Assembly (NCBI RefSeq): GCF_000024005.1
Contig: NC_013132.1
Span: 2,288,001-2,352,000 of the forward strand
DNA length: 64,000 bases
Direction: 5' to 3'
Source of the DNA: Chitinophaga pinensis DSM 2588
GTDB lineage: Bacteria; Bacteroidota; Bacteroidia; Chitinophagales; Chitinophagaceae
In this document: positions 53,690-62,808 of the stretch, piece by piece
Layout of the letters: every line of letters begins with the position of its first letter
Position numbering within the stretch: position 1 is the stretch's first letter
Program-made: the position numbers and the translations under genes
The notes under the pieces: model-generated
The model's database searches: none
What the model saw: only the letters and a program-made list of their open reading frames with translations
What the model was told of the DNA's origin: nothing

Positions 53690-54592
53690 ATGCAACCAAC
53701 TTTATTGATCCTTGCTGCCGGTATGGCTAGCCGATACGGTAGCTTAAAACAGATCCAGCAGTTTGGCCCCAGCGGTGAAACAATTGTTGATTACTCCATT
53801 TACGATGCTATCCGTGCTGGTTTCGGCAAGATAGTGTTCATTATCCGTAAGGATTTTGAAAAAGAATTTAAAGAAATATTTGAACCTAAACTGAAAGGTC
53901 GTGTAGAGACGGATTATGTATTTCAGGAAATGGATGCATTTACAGATGGCTATGCAACGCCGGCTGACCGTACCAAACCATGGGGTACAGCGCATGCTAT
54001 ATTGTGTGCAAAAGATGCTATCAACGAACCCTTTGCAGTGATCAATGCAGATGATTTTTATGGTCGTGACTCATTTGAGAAAGCGGCTGCTTTCCTGAAA
54101 GATGCTGCTAAACCGGATGTATACTGTGTGGTTGGTTATCAGTTAAGTAAAACGATCAGTGAGCATGGTTCCGTTTCCCGCGGCGTATGTGCTGCTGACA
54201 GCGAAAGCAACCTGGCTGCTATCAATGAAAGAACCAAGGTATATAAAGACGGAGAGCAGATCGTGTATGAAGATGCTGATGGCAGCAAACACGAACTCGC
54301 ACCGGATACCCCGGTTTCTATGAACTTCTGGGGTTTCCATCCTTCTGTATTTAAACTGAGCCAGGATCTGTTCAGAGACTTCCTGCAGCAGAATGGTGAT
54401 AAACCGAAGTCAGAGTTCTTCATTCCGATCGTTGTAGATCATTTCATTAAGAACAAAGTAGGTGTTGTAAATGTGATCCCAACAGGAGCGCAGTGGTTTG
54501 GTGTTACTTATAAAGAAGATGCTCCCGGTGTACAGGAAAGTCTCTCTGCCCTGGTAAAAAGTGGGGAATATCCAGACAACCTCTGGAAATAG
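53690..54592 (+). CDS. Sugar-phosphate nucleotidyltransferase family protein
   Basis: 300 residues. The N-terminal signature LLILAAGMASRYGSLKQIQQ is the nucleotide-binding loop of NDP-sugar pyrophosphorylases, and DDFYGRDSF holds the metal-binding Asp. GTAHAILCAKDAINEPFAVI and FWGFHPSVFKL are also family-like. The protein makes a nucleoside diphosphate-sugar from NTP and a sugar phosphate; the sugar cannot be named. It lies between the fucosidase (divergent) and the ilv leader, and does not appear part of either. Confidence 0.85.
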   Translation: MQPTLLILAAGMASRYGSLKQIQQFGPSGETIVDYSIYDAIRAGFGKIVFIIRKDFEKEFKEIFEPKLKGRVETDYVFQEMDAFTDGYATPADRTKPWGTAHAILCAKDAINEPFAVINADDFYGRDSFEKAAAFLKDAAKPDVYCVVGYQLSKTISEHGSVSRGVCAADSESNLAAINERTKVYKDGEQIVYEDADGSKHELAPDTPVSMNFWGFHPSVFKLSQDLFRDFLQQNGDKPKSEFFIPIVVDHFIKNKVGVVNVIPTGAQWFGVTYKEDAPGVQESLSALVKSGEYPDNLWK

Positions 54593-54712: not shown

Positions 54713-54744
54713 ATTGTTTTTTAGTTTTATGACCAATACATTTG
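54713..54744 (+). promoter_or_regulatory. Promoter of the ilv leader and operon
   Basis: TACATTTG (54737-54744) is an exact TAnnTTTG -7 box; ATTG (54713-54716), 20 bases upstream, is a weaker -33 match. Transcription would begin near 54750, about 22 bases before the leader peptide ATG. Confidence 0.7.
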
Positions 54745-54766
54745 TAGAAGCAAAATAAAAAGCGTC

Positions 54767-54931
54767 CCTCCATGTGGGTAAATAAAGACAACAATAAGAT
54801 TAATCACATCGTAGCTCAGCTCAACTGGGCTATCACACTAGTCGTGATTGTCGTTGTCATTATTAGCCACCAGTATGGAGGATAGGTTAACGTGTACAAT
54901 CACTAATGATAAACAAGACGCCTTCCTCCAT
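54767..54931 (+). promoter_or_regulatory. Alternative RNA pairings of the ilv attenuator
   Basis: Region 2, ATGGAGGA (54875-54882, overlapping the last codons of the leader peptide), can pair perfectly with TCCTCCAT (54924-54931) in the 5' arm of the terminator. A one-base bulge and three more pairs (54884-54886 with 54921-54923) extend it to 11 bp. This antiterminator excludes the terminator. Region 1, CCTCCAT (54767-54773, at the leader start codon), can pair with the same region 2. A ribosome stalled in the Val/Ile run leaves region 2 free; one at the stop codon covers it. Confidence 0.75.
54772..54885 (+). CDS. ilv attenuator leader peptide (37 aa)
   Basis: A 37-codon frame starting at ATG and ending at TAG. 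It begins MWVNKDNNKINHIVAQLNW and continues AITLVVIVVVIISHQYGG. Residues 20-31 include ten Ile, Val or Leu codons in a run of twelve, exactly the amino acids made by the operon downstream. It lies 28 bases after a good promoter box and 114 bases before ilvE, with an intrinsic terminator between. This is the pattern of leader peptides that sense branched-chain aminoacyl-tRNA by ribosome stalling. The hydrophobic run could also be read as a tiny membrane protein, but the surrounding RNA structures favour attenuation. Confidence 0.8.
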   Translation: MWVNKDNNKINHIVAQLNWAITLVVIVVVIISHQYGG

Positions 54932-54950
54932 CAGAGGAAGGCGTTTTTTT
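54919..54950 (+). terminator. Intrinsic terminator of the ilv attenuator
   Basis: CGCCTTCCTC (54919-54928) and GAGGAAGGCG (54934-54943) form a perfect 10-bp stem with a CATCA loop, followed by seven Ts. It lies between the leader peptide and ilvE, 50 bases before the ilvE ATG, so it controls read-through into the operon. Confidence 0.9.
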
Positions 54951-54999
54951 GTGCCTGTAATTACAAAGCAATCCAAAATCGAATTCTAATATCTGAATT

Positions 55000-55905
55000 A
55001 TGTATAGCTATTACAACGAGAACACCATTCTTTACATTAACGGGGAGTATAAGAAAGCTACCGCGGCCACTACAGATTTGTATGGTCAGTCATTACATTA
55101 TGGGTATGCTGTATTTGAAGGCATTCGTGCTTATAAAACAGCTGATGGAACTGTGAAGATTTTCAAAGCAAAAGAACACTTCGACAGATTTAAGCGTTCC
55201 TGCGAATTAATACACATGCCGTATCCATTTGATAATGACGAGCTGGTGAAAGCATGTTACAAAGTGCTGGAACTGAATAATATGGAAGAAGCGTACATCC
55301 GTCCGCTCGCTTTCTGCCCTCCGAACATGACACTGAAGGCTGCTGCCGAAACACATGTACTGATCTGTGCATGGGAATGGGGAGCATACCTGGGCGAAAA
55401 ACTGCTGCGTGTGATGACCTCATCTTACCAGCGCCCAAATCCAAAAGCATTCAAGATCGAGTCTAAAACAGCTGGTCTGTATGTAAACTCTATCCTGGCT
55501 TCTCAGGAAGCAAAGGAACAGGGTTACGACGAAGCGCTGCTCCTGGATATCAACGGCTTTGTAGCTGAAGGTCCCGGCGCTAACCTGTTCTTCGAAAAAG
55601 ACGGTAAGATCTTCACACCTCCTCCAGGCAACATCCTGCCAGGTATTACCCGTGCTACCGTGATCGAACTGTGTCATGAACTGGGTATTCCGCTGGAAGA
55701 GAAACTCTTTACTACTGACGAACTGAAAACAGCTGACTGCGTATTCTATTGCGGTACTGCTGCTGAAGTAGTAGGATGGGATTCACTCGATGGCCAGACT
55801 TTTAACAAGCCATGGGCTACTTCTCTGGGTAAACTGCTGCAGCAGGCTTACAAAGCGAAAGTACTTGAGAAAGAATTCGATCGCGCTGCGGTTCCGGTCG
55901 CGTAA
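55000..55905 (+). CDS. ilvE: Branched-chain amino acid aminotransferase
   Basis: 301 residues. Fold-type IV PLP aminotransferase catalysing the last step of Ile, Leu and Val synthesis in the cytoplasm. The cofactor Lys is K156 in ESKTAGLYVNSILA. HYGYAVFEGIRAY near residue 33, EGPGANLFFEK and PGITRATVIEL are family motifs. It is the first structural gene after the attenuator. A 408-base gap separates it from ilvD, longer than other gaps in the operon. Confidence 0.96.
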   Translation: MYSYYNENTILYINGEYKKATAATTDLYGQSLHYGYAVFEGIRAYKTADGTVKIFKAKEHFDRFKRSCELIHMPYPFDNDELVKACYKVLELNNMEEAYIRPLAFCPPNMTLKAAAETHVLICAWEWGAYLGEKLLRVMTSSYQRPNPKAFKIESKTAGLYVNSILASQEAKEQGYDEALLLDINGFVAEGPGANLFFEKDGKIFTPPPGNILPGITRATVIELCHELGIPLEEKLFTTDELKTADCVFYCGTAAEVVGWDSLDGQTFNKPWATSLGKLLQQAYKAKVLEKEFDRAAVPVA

Positions 55906-56313: not shown

Positions 56314-57993
56314 ATGGAATTAAACAAATACAGCAAAACGCTCACGCAGGATCCAACACAGCCCGCCACACAGGCGCAGCTGTACGCACTCGGTTTAACT
56401 GAAGAAGACCTGAAGAAAGCGCAGGTAGGCATTGCCAGTATGGGCTATGACGGTAATCCATGTAACATGCACCTCAATGACCTCGCTCAGGAGGTCAAGA
56501 AAGGGGTCTGGGCTAATAATCTGGTCGGACTCACTTTCCATACTATTGGCGTCAGCGATGGTATGACAAATGGTACTCCGGGTATGCGTTATTCCCTGGT
56601 CAGCCGCGACCTGATTGCTGATTCCATCGAAACCGTTGTAGGCGCTCAGTATTATGATGGTGTGATCACCGTACCTGGCTGTGATAAAAACATGCCTGGC
56701 TCCCTGATCGCGATGGGACGTCTGAATCGTCCTTCTATCATGGTATATGGCGGTTCTACAGCTCCTGGTAAATACCAGGGAAAAGACCTGAACATTATCT
56801 CTGCATTTGAAGCGCTGGGTCAGAAAATGGCTGGTCAGCTCAGCGATGAAGACTTCAAAGGCATTGTACAGCATTCCTGCCCTGGCGCCGGCGCCTGTGG
56901 CGGTATGTATACGGCAAATACCATGTCTTCTGCTATTGAAGCATTAGGTATGAGCCTTCCTTATAGTTCTTCTAACCCTGCACTCAGCAAGGACAAAAAA
57001 GAAGAATGTCTGTCAGCTGGTAAATATATCCACATCCTCCTGGAGAAAGATATCAAGCCTTCTGATATCATGACGCTGGAAGCATTTGAAAATGCGGCTA
57101 CCGTTGTGATGGCACTGGGTGGTAGTACCAATGCCGTACTGCACTTCATTGCAATCGCAAAGGCAATAGGCGTGAAATTCGGATTACCTGAATTCCAGCG
57201 TATCAGCGATAAAACACCACTGATCGCTGACCTGAAACCAAGTGGTAAATACCTGATGGAAGACCTGCACAACATTGGCGGCGTTCCATTAGTAATGAAA
57301 TATCTGCTGAAAAAAGGCTACCTGCATGGTCACTGTCTGACAGTAACCGGCAAGACCCTGGCAGAAAACCTGGAAAGTGTACCAGATCTGGAATTCGAAG
57401 GACAGGATATCGTTGTTCCGGTGGAAAAACCAATAAAAGCGACTGGTCACATCCAGATGCTGTATGGTAACCTGGCAGAACTGGGTTCCGTAGCCAAGAT
57501 TACCGGTAAGGAAGGACTGAGCTTCCGTGGTCCTGCGCGTGTGTTTGAAGGTGAATATGAACTGATCGCAGGTATTCAGAACGGTCGTGTGAAAGCAGGC
57601 GATGTGGTGGTAATCAGACAGGTAGGTCCAAAGGGCGCACCTGGTATGCCGGAAATGCTGAAACCAACATCCGCTATCATGGGTGTAGGTCTTGGTAAGA
57701 GCGTAGCGCTGATTACAGACGGACGTTTCTCTGGTGGTACACACGGTTTTGTAGTAGGACACATCACACCGGAAGCGGTAGAAGGTGGTACTATCGGACT
57801 GGTACAGGACAATGACATAATAGAAATTGACGCCGAAAAGAATACAATCAACGTGGAACTGAGTGCAGAAGAACTGGCTGCCCGCAGGGCGAAATGGGTA
57901 AAACCTGCGTTGAAAGTAACTAATGGTGTATTATATAAATATGCAAAACTCGTTTCAAATGCAACAGAAGGATGTGTTACCGATGAAGCCTGA
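56314..57993 (+). CDS. ilvD: Dihydroxy-acid dehydratase
   Basis: 559 residues, normal for the family. It dehydrates 2,3-dihydroxy acids to the keto acids of Val and Ile using an iron-sulfur cluster. Candidate cluster cysteines are C50 ([10 protein letters not shown]), C123 ([10 protein letters not shown]) and C195 ([10 protein letters not shown]). [16 protein letters not shown] is the C-terminal signature. Its 3' end overlaps the start of ilvB, which suggests coupled translation. Confidence 0.97.
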
Positions 57994-59713
57994 GCCGGCT
58001 GAAAAGCGGACAGCTGCAACTGCTCCACTTAATATGACTGGTTCTGAGGCAGTGATCCGCTCGCTCATTGCAGAAGGTGTTGAAACCATTTTCGGCTATC
58101 CTGGCGGCGCTATCATGCCCATTTATGATGCCCTTTACGATTTCCAACAGGAAATTCATCATATACTGGTCCGTCACGAACAGGGTGCTACGCACGCTGC
58201 ACAAGGTTATGCGCGTTCCTCCGGCAAAACAGGGGTGGTCTTCGCTACCTCCGGTCCGGGTGCTACCAACCTGGTGACAGGTCTGGCTGACGCTTATATG
58301 GATTCTACTCCGATGGTGTGTATTACCGGTCAGGTAGCTGCACATCTGCTGGGTACTGACGCCTTCCAGGAAACAGACGTGATTGGTATTACCATGCCGA
58401 TCACCAAATGGAACATCCAGGTAACACGTCCGGAAGATATTCCAGGCGCTATCGCCAAAGCATTCTATATCGCAGGTAGCGGCCGTCCGGGCCCGGTACT
58501 GGTAGATATCACCAGGAATGCACAGGTAGCGAAATTTGATTTCGAATACAAGAAATGTGATTATATCCGCAGCTACCGTCCCGTACCAAGACTGGATCTT
58601 GAGGCAGTAGAAGCGGCAGCAGAACTGATCAATAATGCAAAGAAGCCGTATATATTCTGTGGCCACGGTGTATTGTTGTCAGGCGCTGAAAAAGAACTGA
58701 TCGAACTGGCTGAAAAAGCTGGTATCCCGATCGCTTCCACCTTACTGGGTCTGTCAGCCGTTCCGGTTGATCATCCGAACTATGTAGGTTATCTCGGTAT
58801 GCATGGTAACTATGCCCCGAATATCATGACCAACGAGTGTGATGTACTGATCGCGGTAGGTATGCGTTTCGACGACCGTATCACCGGTGATGTATCACAG
58901 TATGTGAAACAGGCAAAGGTAGTCCACGTAGAGATCGACGCCGCTGAAATCAACAAGATCATCAAAGCGGATGTAGCGGTACATGCAGATGCTAAAACAG
59001 CACTGGAAGCTTTGCTGGCACTGGTAAAACCTGCAAAACACGACGAGTGGATACAGTCCTTCCGTGAGGCAGATAAACAGGAAATAGAAAAAGTATCTAC
59101 GAAAGAACTTTATCCTACTGAAGGTGGTTTAAAGATGGCGGAAGTAGTGCGCCTCATCTCTGAAAGAACCGAAGGTAAGGCGATACTGGTAACCGACGTC
59201 GGCCAGCACCAGATGATCGCTTCCCGTTACTATCGCTTTAAAGATCCGAATACCAACATCACTTCCGGTGGTATGGGTACAATGGGTTTTGCATTGCCGG
59301 CAGCAATGGGGGCAAAAGTAGGTGCGCCTGAAAAAGAAGTAGTGGCAGTAATCGGTGATGGTTGTTTCCAGATGACATTGCAGGAACTGGGTACGATCTA
59401 TCAGTCTGAAATAGGCGTGAAAATAGTGATCCTGAATAACAACTTCCTGGGTATGGTGCGTCAATGGCAACAGCTGTTCTTTGACAAACGTTACTCTTCT
59501 ACAGAAATGACCAACCCTGACTTCGTACAGATCGCAAAAGGGTTCTTCATTCCGGGTAGAAAAGTGACTGACCGTGCAGATATTACTGCTGCTGTAGATG
59601 AGATGATCTCTCACAAGGGCGCTTATCTGCTGGAAGTAGTCGTGGAGAAAGAAGACAACGTATTCCCAATGGTGCCTTCCGGCCAGCCGATCGCAAATAT
59701 CAGGCTCGAGTAG
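57983..59713 (+). CDS. ilvB: Acetolactate synthase, large subunit
   Basis: 576 residues if it starts at the ATG at 57983, overlapping the ilvD stop by 11 bases; in-frame ATGs at 57941 and 57959 are alternatives with longer overlap. ThDP- and FAD-dependent enzyme that makes acetolactate and acetohydroxybutyrate. The catalytic Glu lies in [20 protein letters not shown] and the ThDP motif is [20 protein letters not shown] ending in [17 protein letters not shown] is the N-terminal signature. ilvN, the regulatory subunit, follows after 38 bases. Confidence 0.96.
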
Positions 59714-59751: not shown

Positions 59752-60342
59752 ATGCAAAAAGAATATACAATAACGGTTTATACGGAAGACAGGATTGGTA
59801 TCACCAGTCGTATAACCGTTATTTTCACCCGCCGTGGAATAAATATCACGAGTCTTACAACGGCTGAAACAGAGATTCCTGGCGTATATAAGTTCATCAT
59901 CACCGTGCTTTCTGAAAAAGAAAAACTGGTGAAGATCGTAGGTCAGATCGAAAGACTGATCGAAATCCACCGTGCATTTGTACATGAAGAAGACGAAGTG
60001 GTATACCAGGAACTCGCGCTGTACAAGATCTCTACAAAGGCGCTGCAGAACGGTAATATCGAACTGCTGATCCGTGAGAACAATGCACGCATCCTCACGA
60101 TCACTGAAGACTACTTCGTACTCGAAAAAACCGGTCATCAGCAGGAGCTGATCGATCTGCAGGCAAAGCTTGCACCATACGGTCTGATCGAATATACCAA
60201 AAGTGGAAGGGTTGCCATTATCAAATGGAGCCGCCGTTTCCACGATCACCTGAAGGAGCTGGAAACACAGCGTCCTGACAACCTGAAGCAGGCTACTTAT
60301 AAAGAACACACAGAAGTGTCTGCAGAAGAAGAAAGTATCTAG
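59752..60342 (+). CDS. ilvN: Acetolactate synthase, small (regulatory) subunit
   Basis: 196 residues. An N-terminal ACT domain (about 4-80, YTITVYTEDRIGITSRITVI; RGINITSLTTAETEIPGVYK) binds valine for feedback inhibition. The C-terminal half (about 85-165, LALYKISTKALQNGNIELLI; ITEDYFVLEKTGHQQELIDL) is the ALS small-subunit domain. It is longer than the 83-92 residue single-ACT subunits of some enterobacterial isozymes and ends in an acidic tail. It stands between ilvB and ilvC. Confidence 0.94.
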   Translation: MQKEYTITVYTEDRIGITSRITVIFTRRGINITSLTTAETEIPGVYKFIITVLSEKEKLVKIVGQIERLIEIHRAFVHEEDEVVYQELALYKISTKALQNGNIELLIRENNARILTITEDYFVLEKTGHQQELIDLQAKLAPYGLIEYTKSGRVAIIKWSRRFHDHLKELETQRPDNLKQATYKEHTEVSAEEESI

Positions 60343-60380: not shown

Positions 60381-61424
60381 ATGGCAACCATCAATTTTGG
60401 AGGGGTACTGGAAGACGTAGTAACCAGAGAAGAATTCCCAATGGAAAAAGCTAGAGAAGTGCTGAAAGATGAAGTGATAGCTATCATCGGTTACGGCGTA
60501 CAGGGTCCCGGCCAGGCACTGAACCTGAAAGATAACGGTTTCAACGTGATCATCGGTCAGCGTAAAGACTCTAAAACCTGGGATAAAGCTGTTGCTGACG
60601 GCTGGGTTCCTGGTCAGACGTTGTTCGAAATCGAAGAAGCTGCTCAGAAAGGTACGATCATTCAGTTCCTGTTGAGTGATGCCGGTCAGATCGCACTGTG
60701 GCCTACACTGAAACCACACCTGACTAAAGGCAAAGCTTTATATTTCTCCCATGGTTTTGGTATTACTTATAAAGACCAGACTAACATTATTCCTCCTGCT
60801 GACGTGGATGTAATCCTGGTAGCCCCTAAAGGTTCCGGTACTTCCCTGCGCAGACTGTTCCTGGCTGGTCAGGGTCTGAACTCCAGCTTTGCTATCTACC
60901 AGGATGCAACCGGTAAAGCACGTGATCGCGTTATCGCACTGGGTATCGGTGTTGGTTCAGGTTACCTGTTCGAAACAGATTTCAAAAAAGAAGTTACTTC
61001 TGACTTAACAGGTGAGCGTGGTACCCTGATGGGTGCTATCCAGGGTATCTTCGCTGCTCAGTACGAAGTACTGCGCAAGAATGGTCACTCTCCATCTGAA
61101 GCATTTAACGAAACAGTAGAAGAACTGACACAGTCTCTGATGCCGCTGGTTGCTGAAAACGGTATGGACTGGATGTATGCTAACTGTTCTACTACCGCTC
61201 AGCGTGGTGCGCTGGATTGGTGGAAGAAATTCAAAGAAGCAAGCCAGCCGGTATTCGAAGAACTGTATGCAAGTGTTGCTGCAGGTAAAGAAGCTGCACG
61301 TTCTATCGCATCTAACAGTACTCCTGACTATCGTGATAAACTGAACGAAGAACTGAGAGAACTGCGCGAAAGCGAAATGTGGCAGGCTGGTGCTGCGGTA
61401 AGAAAACTGCGCCCAAATAACTAA
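60381..61424 (+). CDS. ilvC: Ketol-acid reductoisomerase
   Basis: 347 residues. It rearranges and reduces acetolactate or acetohydroxybutyrate with NAD(P)H and magnesium. The nucleotide-binding GYGVQGPGQALNL is near residue 36, with RKDSKTW as the loop that selects the cofactor. The knotted C-terminal domain has DLTGERGTLMGAIQGIFAAQ and ETVEELTQSLMPLVAENGMD with the metal-binding acids. It is the last gene before the heptad-repeat element that separates it from ilvA. Confidence 0.96.
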   Translation: MATINFGGVLEDVVTREEFPMEKAREVLKDEVIAIIGYGVQGPGQALNLKDNGFNVIIGQRKDSKTWDKAVADGWVPGQTLFEIEEAAQKGTIIQFLLSDAGQIALWPTLKPHLTKGKALYFSHGFGITYKDQTNIIPPADVDVILVAPKGSGTSLRRLFLAGQGLNSSFAIYQDATGKARDRVIALGIGVGSGYLFETDFKKEVTSDLTGERGTLMGAIQGIFAAQYEVLRKNGHSPSEAFNETVEELTQSLMPLVAENGMDWMYANCSTTAQRGALDWWKKFKEASQPVFEELYASVAAGKEAARSIASNSTPDYRDKLNEELRELRESEMWQAGAAVRKLRPNN

Positions 61425-61551: not shown

Positions 61552-62808
61552 ATGTCCCAGGTACTAACAAGCGTGAATCCGCTCAACATACTCGATGCAG
61601 CGGTGAAGTTAAAACCTGTGGTGAACCGTACCCCGCTTACTTACAGCGCCACGCTCTCCCGCAGGTACAATGCAGATGTCTATCTCAAAAGAGAAGACAT
61701 GCAGATTGTAAGATCTTATAAATTGCGTGGGGCATACAACCTGATTAGCAGCCTGGATAAAGAAACGCTGTCAAAAGGAGTAACCTGTGCCAGCGCGGGT
61801 AACCATGCGCAGGGCTTTGCCTATGCATGCCGCCAGCTGGATATTAAAGGCGTGTGTTTCATGCCGATCATTACGCCGAAACAAAAAGTCAACCAGGTAA
61901 ATATGTTCGGTGGCGAGAACATCGAAATCAGACTGGTAGGCGATACATTTGATGATTGTGCGGCAGAAGCCCAGGCTTTTACCAAAGCACACAACATGAC
62001 TTTCATTCCTCCTTTCGATGATGCAAAGATCATTGAAGGACAAGGTACCGTAGCTGTAGAGATTCTGGAAGACCAGTCGAAGATCGATTATGTGTTCGTG
62101 CCTATTGGTGGCGGCGGACTCGCGGCAGGTGTCGGTACTTATTTTAAAACATACAGTCCCCATACACAGATCATTGGCGTGGAACCGGAAGGCGCTCCGT
62201 CTATGAGTCGTGCACTGGAGGCAGGCGAGCCAGTTACACTGAGCGAGATTGAGCGTTTCGTGGACGGTGCTGCCGTAAAAAGAGTAGGTACGCTGAATTT
62301 CAGTATCTGCAAAGACGTTCTGACAAAAATGCAACTGGTACCGGAAGGGAAAGTTTGCTCAACTATATTAAGGCTGTACAATGAAGACGCTATCGTGGTG
62401 GAGCCTGCAGGGGCACTGTCCATTGCGGCGCTTGATTATTTCGCGAAAGAAATTGAAGGCAAAAAGGTAGTTTGTGTTGTCAGCGGCAGCAACAACGATA
62501 TCGACCGTATGCAGGAGATCAAGGAACGTTCCCTGTTATACGAAGGTCTGAAACACTACTTCATCATCCGCTTCGTACAGCGCCCAGGTGCACTGAAAGA
62601 ATTCGTGAACCACGTGCTGGGACCTAACGATGATATCACCCGTTTCGAATTCATTCAGAAACACAACAAGGAAACCGGCCCCGCACTGATCGGTGTGGAA
62701 CTGAAAAACAGGGAGGATTATGATATCCTGTTGGCTAATTTCCGCAAGTATAATATTCACTTCACTGAGCTGAACAAGGACGATAATCTGTTCGGCTACC
62801 TGGTTTAA
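61552..62808 (+). CDS. ilvA: Threonine dehydratase (biosynthetic)
   Basis: 418 residues. PLP enzyme that turns threonine into 2-oxobutanoate, the first step to isoleucine. Cofactor Lys57 is in RSYKLRGAYN. TCASAGNHAQGFAYA and FVPIGGGGLAAGVG are the phosphate and glycine-rich loops. The C-terminal part (about 330-418, HYFIIRFVQRPGALKEFVNH) is a single ACT-like domain, shorter than the two domains of the E. coli enzyme. Its placement at the end of the ilv operon supports a biosynthetic rather than catabolic role. Confidence 0.94.
   Translation: MSQVLTSVNPLNILDAAVKLKPVVNRTPLTYSATLSRRYNADVYLKREDMQIVRSYKLRGAYNLISSLDKETLSKGVTCASAGNHAQGFAYACRQLDIKGVCFMPIITPKQKVNQVNMFGGENIEIRLVGDTFDDCAAEAQAFTKAHNMTFIPPFDDAKIIEGQGTVAVEILEDQSKIDYVFVPIGGGGLAAGVGTYFKTYSPHTQIIGVEPEGAPSMSRALEAGEPVTLSEIERFVDGAAVKRVGTLNFSICKDVLTKMQLVPEGKVCSTILRLYNEDAIVVEPAGALSIAALDYFAKEIEGKKVVCVVSGSNNDIDRMQEIKERSLLYEGLKHYFIIRFVQRPGALKEFVNHVLGPNDDITRFEFIQKHNKETGPALIGVELKNREDYDILLANFRKYNIHFTELNKDDNLFGYLV

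Follow-up and report, generated by a model that had tools for sequence, protein, structure and literature searches.

The ilvE leader and the ilv operon

The DNA analysed here is a 64-kb stretch of the Chitinophaga pinensis genome, which we call the window and to which all coordinates refer. An ilv operon lies towards its end, with every gene on the plus strand and every product above the cut-off of its protein family model:

55000 to 55905, + strand: ilvE, branched-chain aminotransferase, the first gene of the operon (NCBIfam NF005146 and TIGR01122)
56314 to 57993, + strand: ilvD, dihydroxy-acid dehydratase (TIGR00110)
57923 to 59713, + strand: ilvB ORF, acetolactate synthase large subunit (TIGR00118, match from residue 38)
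59752 to 60342, + strand: ilvN, acetolactate synthase small subunit (TIGR00119)
60381 to 61424, + strand: ilvC, ketol-acid reductoisomerase (TIGR00465)
61552 to 62808, + strand: ilvA, threonine ammonia-lyase (TIGR02079)

The actual start of ilvB probably lies further inside the ORF at 57923-59713. The leader comprises the 287 bases preceding ilvE and opens with a putative promoter of the -33/-7 type, which is typical of Bacteroidota. Its parts are as follows:

54714 to 54716, + strand: putative -33 element TTG, 20 nt upstream of the -7 box (sequence)
54737 to 54744, + strand: -7 promoter box TACATTTG, of the form TAnnTTTG (sequence and conservation)
54767 to 54773, + strand: region 1, CCTCCAT, over the leader start codon; it can pair with region 2 and does so in the minimum free energy (MFE) fold of the full leader
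54772 to 54885, + strand: leader ORF of 37 codons, MWVNKDNNKINHIVAQLNWAITLVVIVVVIISHQYGG and stop (sequence; kept across the group)
54829 to 54864, + strand: regulatory codon run AITLVVIVVVII, codons 20-31 (sequence)
54875 to 54882, + strand: region 2, ATGGAGGA, under the final codons of the peptide; it pairs with region 3 (RNAalifold consensus and cognate pairing test)
54884 to 54887, + strand: AGGT extension of the antiterminator; it pairs with 54920-54923 in the MFE fold with a run-stalled ribosome and no 3' arm
54919 to 54950, + strand: intrinsic terminator; region 3 is its 5' arm and region 4 its 3' arm (54934-54943)
54924 to 54931, + strand: TCCTCCAT of region 3, spanning the 5' arm and loop of the terminator

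On re-reading, the layout given in the original prediction, from the -7 box through the ORF, the Ile/Val/Leu run and the pairing regions to the terminator, was exact to the base. Ten of the twelve residues at positions 20-31 of the leader peptide are I, L or V. Ile and Val codons are also present early in the ORF (codons 3, 10, 13 and 14), so some stalls would occur far upstream of the run. No Shine-Dalgarno site is evident at the ORF. The terminator stem joins 54919-54928 to 54934-54943 in 10 perfect base pairs around a loop of 5, followed by seven T (54944-54950), and the leader RNA as a whole has a folding energy of -73.9 kcal/mol (z = -7.6 relative to dinucleotide shuffles).

Using our own script, a strict terminator was found behind 1 of 12 ILV-rich short ORFs on the plus strand of the window and 0 of 8 on the minus strand, which makes the leader ORF the sole such case on either strand. 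A generic promoter and terminator scan reported the hairpin on the minus strand only, not the plus strand, where the stricter script detects the terminator; the counts of that scan in the window were no higher than those of shuffles (terminators, 2 versus a mean of 2.6; promoters, 5 versus a mean of 6.5).

Conservation of the leader and pairing of regions 2 and 3

Searching named genomes for ilvE gave 124 related loci, of which we took the best 80; the first 50 of these (L002-L051) form the Chitinophaga group. By label they comprise 48 Chitinophaga, a Flavihumibacter metagenome bin (L005) and [Flexibacter] sp. ATCC 35208 (L024). The ORF, the run, region 2 and the terminator (a GC-rich stem plus a T tail) are all kept in 50 of 50. 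Among the 30 remaining loci the strict test was passed by 14, and 12 of the 16 failures appear on inspection by eye to encode an ILV-rich peptide ahead of a terminator with slight imperfections, as in Pedobacter. TAnnTTTG occurs in 50 of 51 group leaders, counting that of the window, where shuffles lead one to expect 3.0; it lies a median 29 nt upstream of the start codon. The block around the -33 TTG appears well kept in the Chitinophaga alignment by eye. The exact box is less regular outside the genus, being present in 13 of 36 other ilv leaders of the family and 9 of 37 class representatives. Three loci (L005, L057 and L059) are labelled as metagenome bins of Flavihumibacter, Candidatus Nitrotoga and Limnohabitans, with ilvE near that of Chitinophaga or other Bacteroidota; these labels may be binning errors.

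Selection along the ORF was estimated from 47 distinct sequences. Codons 2-19 show a pS of 0.53 and a pN of 0.08, giving a dN/dS of 0.09; the ratio is 0.18 for codons 20-31 and 0.55 for codons 32-37, which contain region 2, while ilvE itself gives 0.059 (50 of these sequences). Such purifying selection on amino acids suggests that the leader ORF is translated. Within the genus, conservation at the amino acid level extends to the N-terminal half of the peptide (54772-54828), which attenuation does not require. Codons 29 (GTC) and 30 (ATT) are invariant in 47 of 47 ORFs, and GTC is the rarest Val codon (10%) in nine genes of the window; this invariance is compatible both with a codon choice that is sensitive to starvation and with RNA pairing that involves the early codons.

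Regions 2 and 3 had been predicted to form an antiterminator that excludes the terminator and that a ribosome at the stop codon would hide. For a permutation test of this pairing, 109 leaders found among 173 scanned sequences were collapsed to 40 clusters, and region 2 was taken as the final 36 nt of the ORF, extended by up to 6 nt. Regions 2 and 3 of the same leader pair at a mean of -12.6 kcal/mol versus -8.8 (sd 0.4) for permuted partners, a value reached by 0 of 20,000 permutations. The own partner is better than the row median in 34 of 40 rows and the single best in only 9 of 40. In 12-nt windows the own-partner excess is -0.7 kcal/mol for a start 24 nt upstream of the ORF end and grows to -2.0 for a start at the end itself; elsewhere along the leader it ranges from +0.3 to -0.5. 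The probably false clusters L220 and L229/L230, described below, were kept in this test and omitted from the region 1 and fold tests. Peptide ends vary by clade (GG, KAL, KAA, GSL, GGG) and the terminator arms vary in step; in the sequences compared, regions 2 and 3 change together between clades, as a stop-codon-masked antiterminator would predict. GGAGG in region 2 was also considered as a Shine-Dalgarno-like site and dropped, because other clades carry other motifs there, region 2 reading GGTAAGC in his leaders and GGCGCT in Pedobacter.

Inside the genus covariation is slight, with a two-sided change in 1 of 26 pairs (40 of 51 leaders, near-duplicates omitted), because regions 2 and 3 are almost invariant there; this shortage of variation is why the cross-clade permutation test was used. 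The covariation that the original prediction proposed to look for is present between clades and faint within the genus. The alignment of relatives' leaders that it proposed for this purpose shows, in the Chitinophaga group, the run, the region 2/3 pairing and the terminator kept; across clades the two halves of the pairing co-change. When 40 of the 51 leaders were given to RNAalifold, the consensus included the antiterminator.

Folds were also computed with a ribosome in place. For a ribosome stalled in the run and a polymerase that has only just passed region 3, the stretch 54856-54936 yields an antiterminator of 8 + 4 bp (-18.6 kcal/mol). A ribosome on the stop codon leaves 54898-54960, which folds solely into the terminator hairpin (-24.6 kcal/mol). 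When many leaders were folded with the ribosome edge placed 27 nt short of the ORF end and the terminator lacking its 3' arm, an antiterminator of at least 5 bp appeared in 38 of 38 class representatives, 37 of 37 family leaders and 27 of 27 his leaders, counts that stand without a random control. At the level of sequence, the permutation test, the folds and the RNAalifold consensus together bear out the predicted antiterminator, its exclusion of the terminator and its masking by a ribosome at the stop codon. In equilibrium folds the completed terminator is more stable than the antiterminator even after a stall, so the choice of the antiterminator must be kinetic.

Leaders of ilv, his and trp operons in the family and class

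To define the wider distribution, 92 Bacteroidia regions upstream of ilvD were scanned: 47 of 50 matching genomes from an order search, 13 from a phylum search (picked among the matches listed, of 216 matching genomes) and 32 from a class search (36 matching genomes), a few of them shortened by contig ends. A strict leader was a short ORF starting with ATG, GTG or TTG, in which at least 7 of 9 residues are I, L or V, followed within 110 nt by a strict terminator. This combination occurs in 44 of the 92 regions and in 1 of their reverse complements; about 3 of the 44 matches are probably false. The remaining 48 divide into 39 with neither element, 8 with an ILV-rich ORF and no strict terminator, and 1 with a terminator only. 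The last class, relatives that lose the run and keep the terminator, is what the original prediction had named as evidence against itself, and it amounts to 1 of 92, terminators having been sought only in the last 420 nt before ilvD.

A further 40 ilvD-upstream regions, from 84 genomes matching in a Chitinophagaceae search, yielded a leader with terminator in 27 and none in reverse. One of these, L284, duplicates L011 and was left out of the 37-leader family set, although it is still counted within the 27 of 40. Pooled, the leader is found in 71 of 132 regions versus 1 of 132 reversed; scans for eight other sets of residues gave 0-13 of 132. Candidate ilv attenuators are therefore common in the class sample, yet not universal. 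In L220, L229 and L230, which are among the 44 class matches, a hydrophobic short ORF scored as a leader, containing VIFLIIYL and DNSIFGLIPQPG in L229 and L230; these short ORFs are probably small membrane proteins.

Other amino acid operons of the Chitinophagaceae carry comparable leaders. hisG is present in 36 of 45 family genomes, and 27 of the 30 loci scanned show a His-rich leader ahead of a terminator (none in reverse), the halves recurring as GGTARGC and GCTTACC, a motif recognised by eye. C. pinensis itself has the his leader MSINVHTHHHHHSYRAGRLG with its own terminator (L252, upstream of hisG at 2222037). A trpE-like gene is present in 25 of 25 genomes; in the best 20 of the 25 loci, a Trp-containing leader with a terminator precedes 18, 17 of them with WWW (reverse, 0), and the motif WWWHTNS is common to the trp leaders of the family. 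The C. pinensis example is MKTVITNKHWWWHNIRS, again with a terminator (L326, upstream of trpE at 2227043), and in two Chitinophaga trp leaders (L326 and L332) the last codons fit the terminator only weakly. Region 2 pairs with its own terminator at -16.0 in ilv, -13.3 in his and -13.0 in trp leaders, versus -7.7 to -10.2 with the terminators of the other operons. Upstream of leuA, a leader with terminator was found in 0 of 19 regions; in C. pinensis, leuA appears by eye to lie closely behind another gene. Short ORFs ending in PLWWAKH (24811, + strand) and PVWWDKQ (5263, - strand) lie beside terminators in the window; we take these endings to resemble the C-termini of SusD-like proteins, not trp leaders.

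Proposed mechanism, alternatives and the role of region 1

We consider it highly likely, at a probability of about 0.93, that this leader is a ribosome-mediated transcription attenuator for ilvE-ilvD-ilvB-ilvN-ilvC-ilvA. The attenuator interpretation of the original prediction largely holds, as the codon run, the terminator, the antiterminator and the stop-codon geometry are conserved. The parts of the leader, their conservation, the mutual exclusion of the two structures and the co-change of regions 2 and 3 between clades come directly from sequence and comparison. Transcription, we infer, would begin just after the -7 box, and a ribosome would load on the leader ORF and translate it. With ample charged Ile, Val and Leu tRNA, the ribosome would reach the stop codon and hide region 2 (54875-54882), upon which the hairpin at 54919-54943 would form and transcription would end at the T tract. 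Under a shortage of these tRNAs the ribosome would stall in the Val/Ile run and leave region 2 free to pair with 54924-54931, and 54884-54887 with 54920-54923, before the 3' arm of the terminator is made; the antiterminator would then win kinetically and the polymerase continue into the operon. If no ribosome loads, region 1 may tie up region 2 together with the start codon, so that termination would be the default; this is the least certain step. Taken together, the leader very probably would let this soil bacterium switch on its ilv genes only when branched-chain amino acids are scarce.

Could the hairpin merely terminate the nucleotidyltransferase-like gene upstream (53690-54592), with the short ORF being incidental? 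The hairpin is located downstream of that gene, and terminators are frequent in bacterial intergenic regions. It lies, however, 326 nt past the stop codon of the gene and beyond a promoter box conserved in 50 of 51 leaders, an ORF under purifying selection stands in between, and across the class ORF and terminator co-occur and fit one another; we therefore regard this explanation as very improbable. Equally remote, in our estimate, is a riboswitch, T-box or protein-bound leader that senses branched-chain amino acids or tRNA while the ORF goes unread. Elements of the riboswitch and T-box type govern ilv operons in Firmicutes, and a z of -7.6 marks this leader as strongly folded, but a scan of the window against Rfam gave no match at the gathering threshold, the amino acids of codons 2-19 are kept while synonymous sites vary (the pS and pN given above), and the leader residue tracks the operon in Chitinophagaceae (I/V/L, H and W). 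This match between residue and operon in three operons is hard to explain otherwise than by attenuation.

The leader peptide might itself be functional, as a small membrane protein or a ribosome-arresting nascent chain, either in addition to sensing codons or in place of it. Its N-terminal half evolves within the genus at a dN/dS of 0.09, near the 0.059 of ilvE, even though attenuation does not require that half, and the run would form a hydrophobic helix. Outside the genus, on the other hand, the N-terminal half is dissimilar by eye, whereas the run, region 2 and the terminator persist; pairing of the early codons with the run may account for part of the N-terminal conservation, and the sample is small, covering one genus and 47 distinct ORFs. 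We consider a function of the peptide unlikely.

Leader-peptide attenuation is itself textbook knowledge, but little seems to have been published on how widely it occurs in this bacterial group. In gamma-proteobacteria, ilvL is a leader-peptide attenuator ahead of the ilv operon. The C. pinensis leader resembles it in having a short ORF with an Ile/Val/Leu codon run before an ilv operon and in the mutual exclusion of antiterminator and terminator. Unlike the ilvL attenuators, it has a -7 box of the Bacteroidota type, no evident Shine-Dalgarno site, and a region 2 under the last codons and the stop; the likeness considered here is one of layout. Vitreschak et al. (2004) reportedly listed candidate attenuators for branched-chain amino acids, His, Thr, Trp and Phe, some of them in Bacteroidetes/Chlorobi. 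That study (FEMS Microbiol Lett 234:357) is cited in PMC1262725.

Experimental precedent comes from the ilvBNC operon of Corynebacterium glutamicum, whose attenuator, according to the available text, has a leader peptide with branched-chain amino acid codons, a terminator, an antiterminator and an anti-antiterminator, in a transcript that begins one nucleotide from the leader start codon (PMC11857589). It belongs to a different phylum and has a different peptide, and mutants were tested there, whereas the C. pinensis leader was studied by sequence analysis. According to the accessible part of PMC2965389, attenuators had been shown only in Proteobacteria and Actinobacteria before the Firmicutes find of that paper. 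Within the Bacteroidota, short ORFs of Bacteroides are described, in the text available, as reminiscent of leader peptides (PMC7366714). Strong clues for leader-peptide attenuation are reported for Flavobacterium psychrophilum, of the same phylum, where the genes named as having conserved, structured elements at their 5' ends include pheA and hisG; ilv is absent from the main text of that article and, in its accessible part, the proposal comes with no comparative antiterminator test, unlike the present analysis (PMC9723704). The original prediction was unsure whether such a leader had been recorded for this group: judging from the available text of the F. psychrophilum article, attenuation had already been suggested in the phylum, though not for ilv. 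Among the matches listed from the open-access literature (subscription papers lying outside this scope), none has a Bacteroidota ilv attenuator as the subject of its title or abstract opening. The mechanism is known, and the comparative case given here is fuller than any we found in print.

Attenuation by a ribosome requires the first ribosome to follow closely behind the polymerase. We found no report on transcription-translation coupling in Bacteroidota among the matches listed, and the widespread ilv leaders, together with the his and trp leaders of the family, constitute a natural reporter for this question. The leaders also offer a ready explanation of amino acid operon control, and make short leader ORFs and 'intergenic' terminators in these genomes annotatable. 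In the accessible portions of two studies, Bacteroidota mRNAs are described as having no Shine-Dalgarno sites and their ribosomes as failing to recognise them (PMC6847099; PMC9976891), and predicted F. johnsoniae transcripts as carrying a mean of 33 nt of leader (PMC6847099).

The original prediction further held that CCTCCAT at the leader start can sequester region 2 when translation fails. Within Chitinophaga the element is conserved, CCTCC lying at most 14 nt from the start codon in 46 of 51 group leaders; in the wider family the support weakens, and across the class it does not hold in general. Of 37 family leaders, 35 pair region 2 more strongly with the sequence surrounding the start codon than shuffles do on average, but singly only 7 of the 37 reach p < 0.05, and class-wide the own-partner effect of region 1 is small (27 leaders, 106 of 20,000 permutations); with so weak a signal, region 1 is not claimed as a class feature. 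By eye, region 1 is not evident in his leaders, and the flanking bases that extend CCUCC:GGAGG show no visible co-variation. Folding of the window's leader also qualifies the idea. Without a ribosome, RNA extending to 54890 pairs region 1 with region 2 (-43.5), RNA extending to 54936 favours the antiterminator (-50.8), and the full leader returns to region 1:2 pairing plus the terminator (-73.9), so that the antiterminator beats the protector before the 3' arm of the terminator exists. A role of region 1 as protector of region 2 is plausible on these comparisons.

We tentatively propose, as a possibility that we rate well below even, that the start of Chitinophagaceae ilv mRNAs, including the start codon, acts as an anti-antiterminator, termination following unless a ribosome initiates before region 2 is made. 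Read by ribosomes that make no use of Shine-Dalgarno sites, such a leader would check the speed of initiation beside the supply of codons, and Bacteroidota ilv, his and trp leaders would work with very short 5' ends under tight coupling of ribosome and polymerase. In the his leaders (loci L235-L263), TAnnTTTG ends a median of 8.5 nt before the start codon (22 of 27), so near that these mRNAs may be almost leaderless if transcription starts a few bases past the box.
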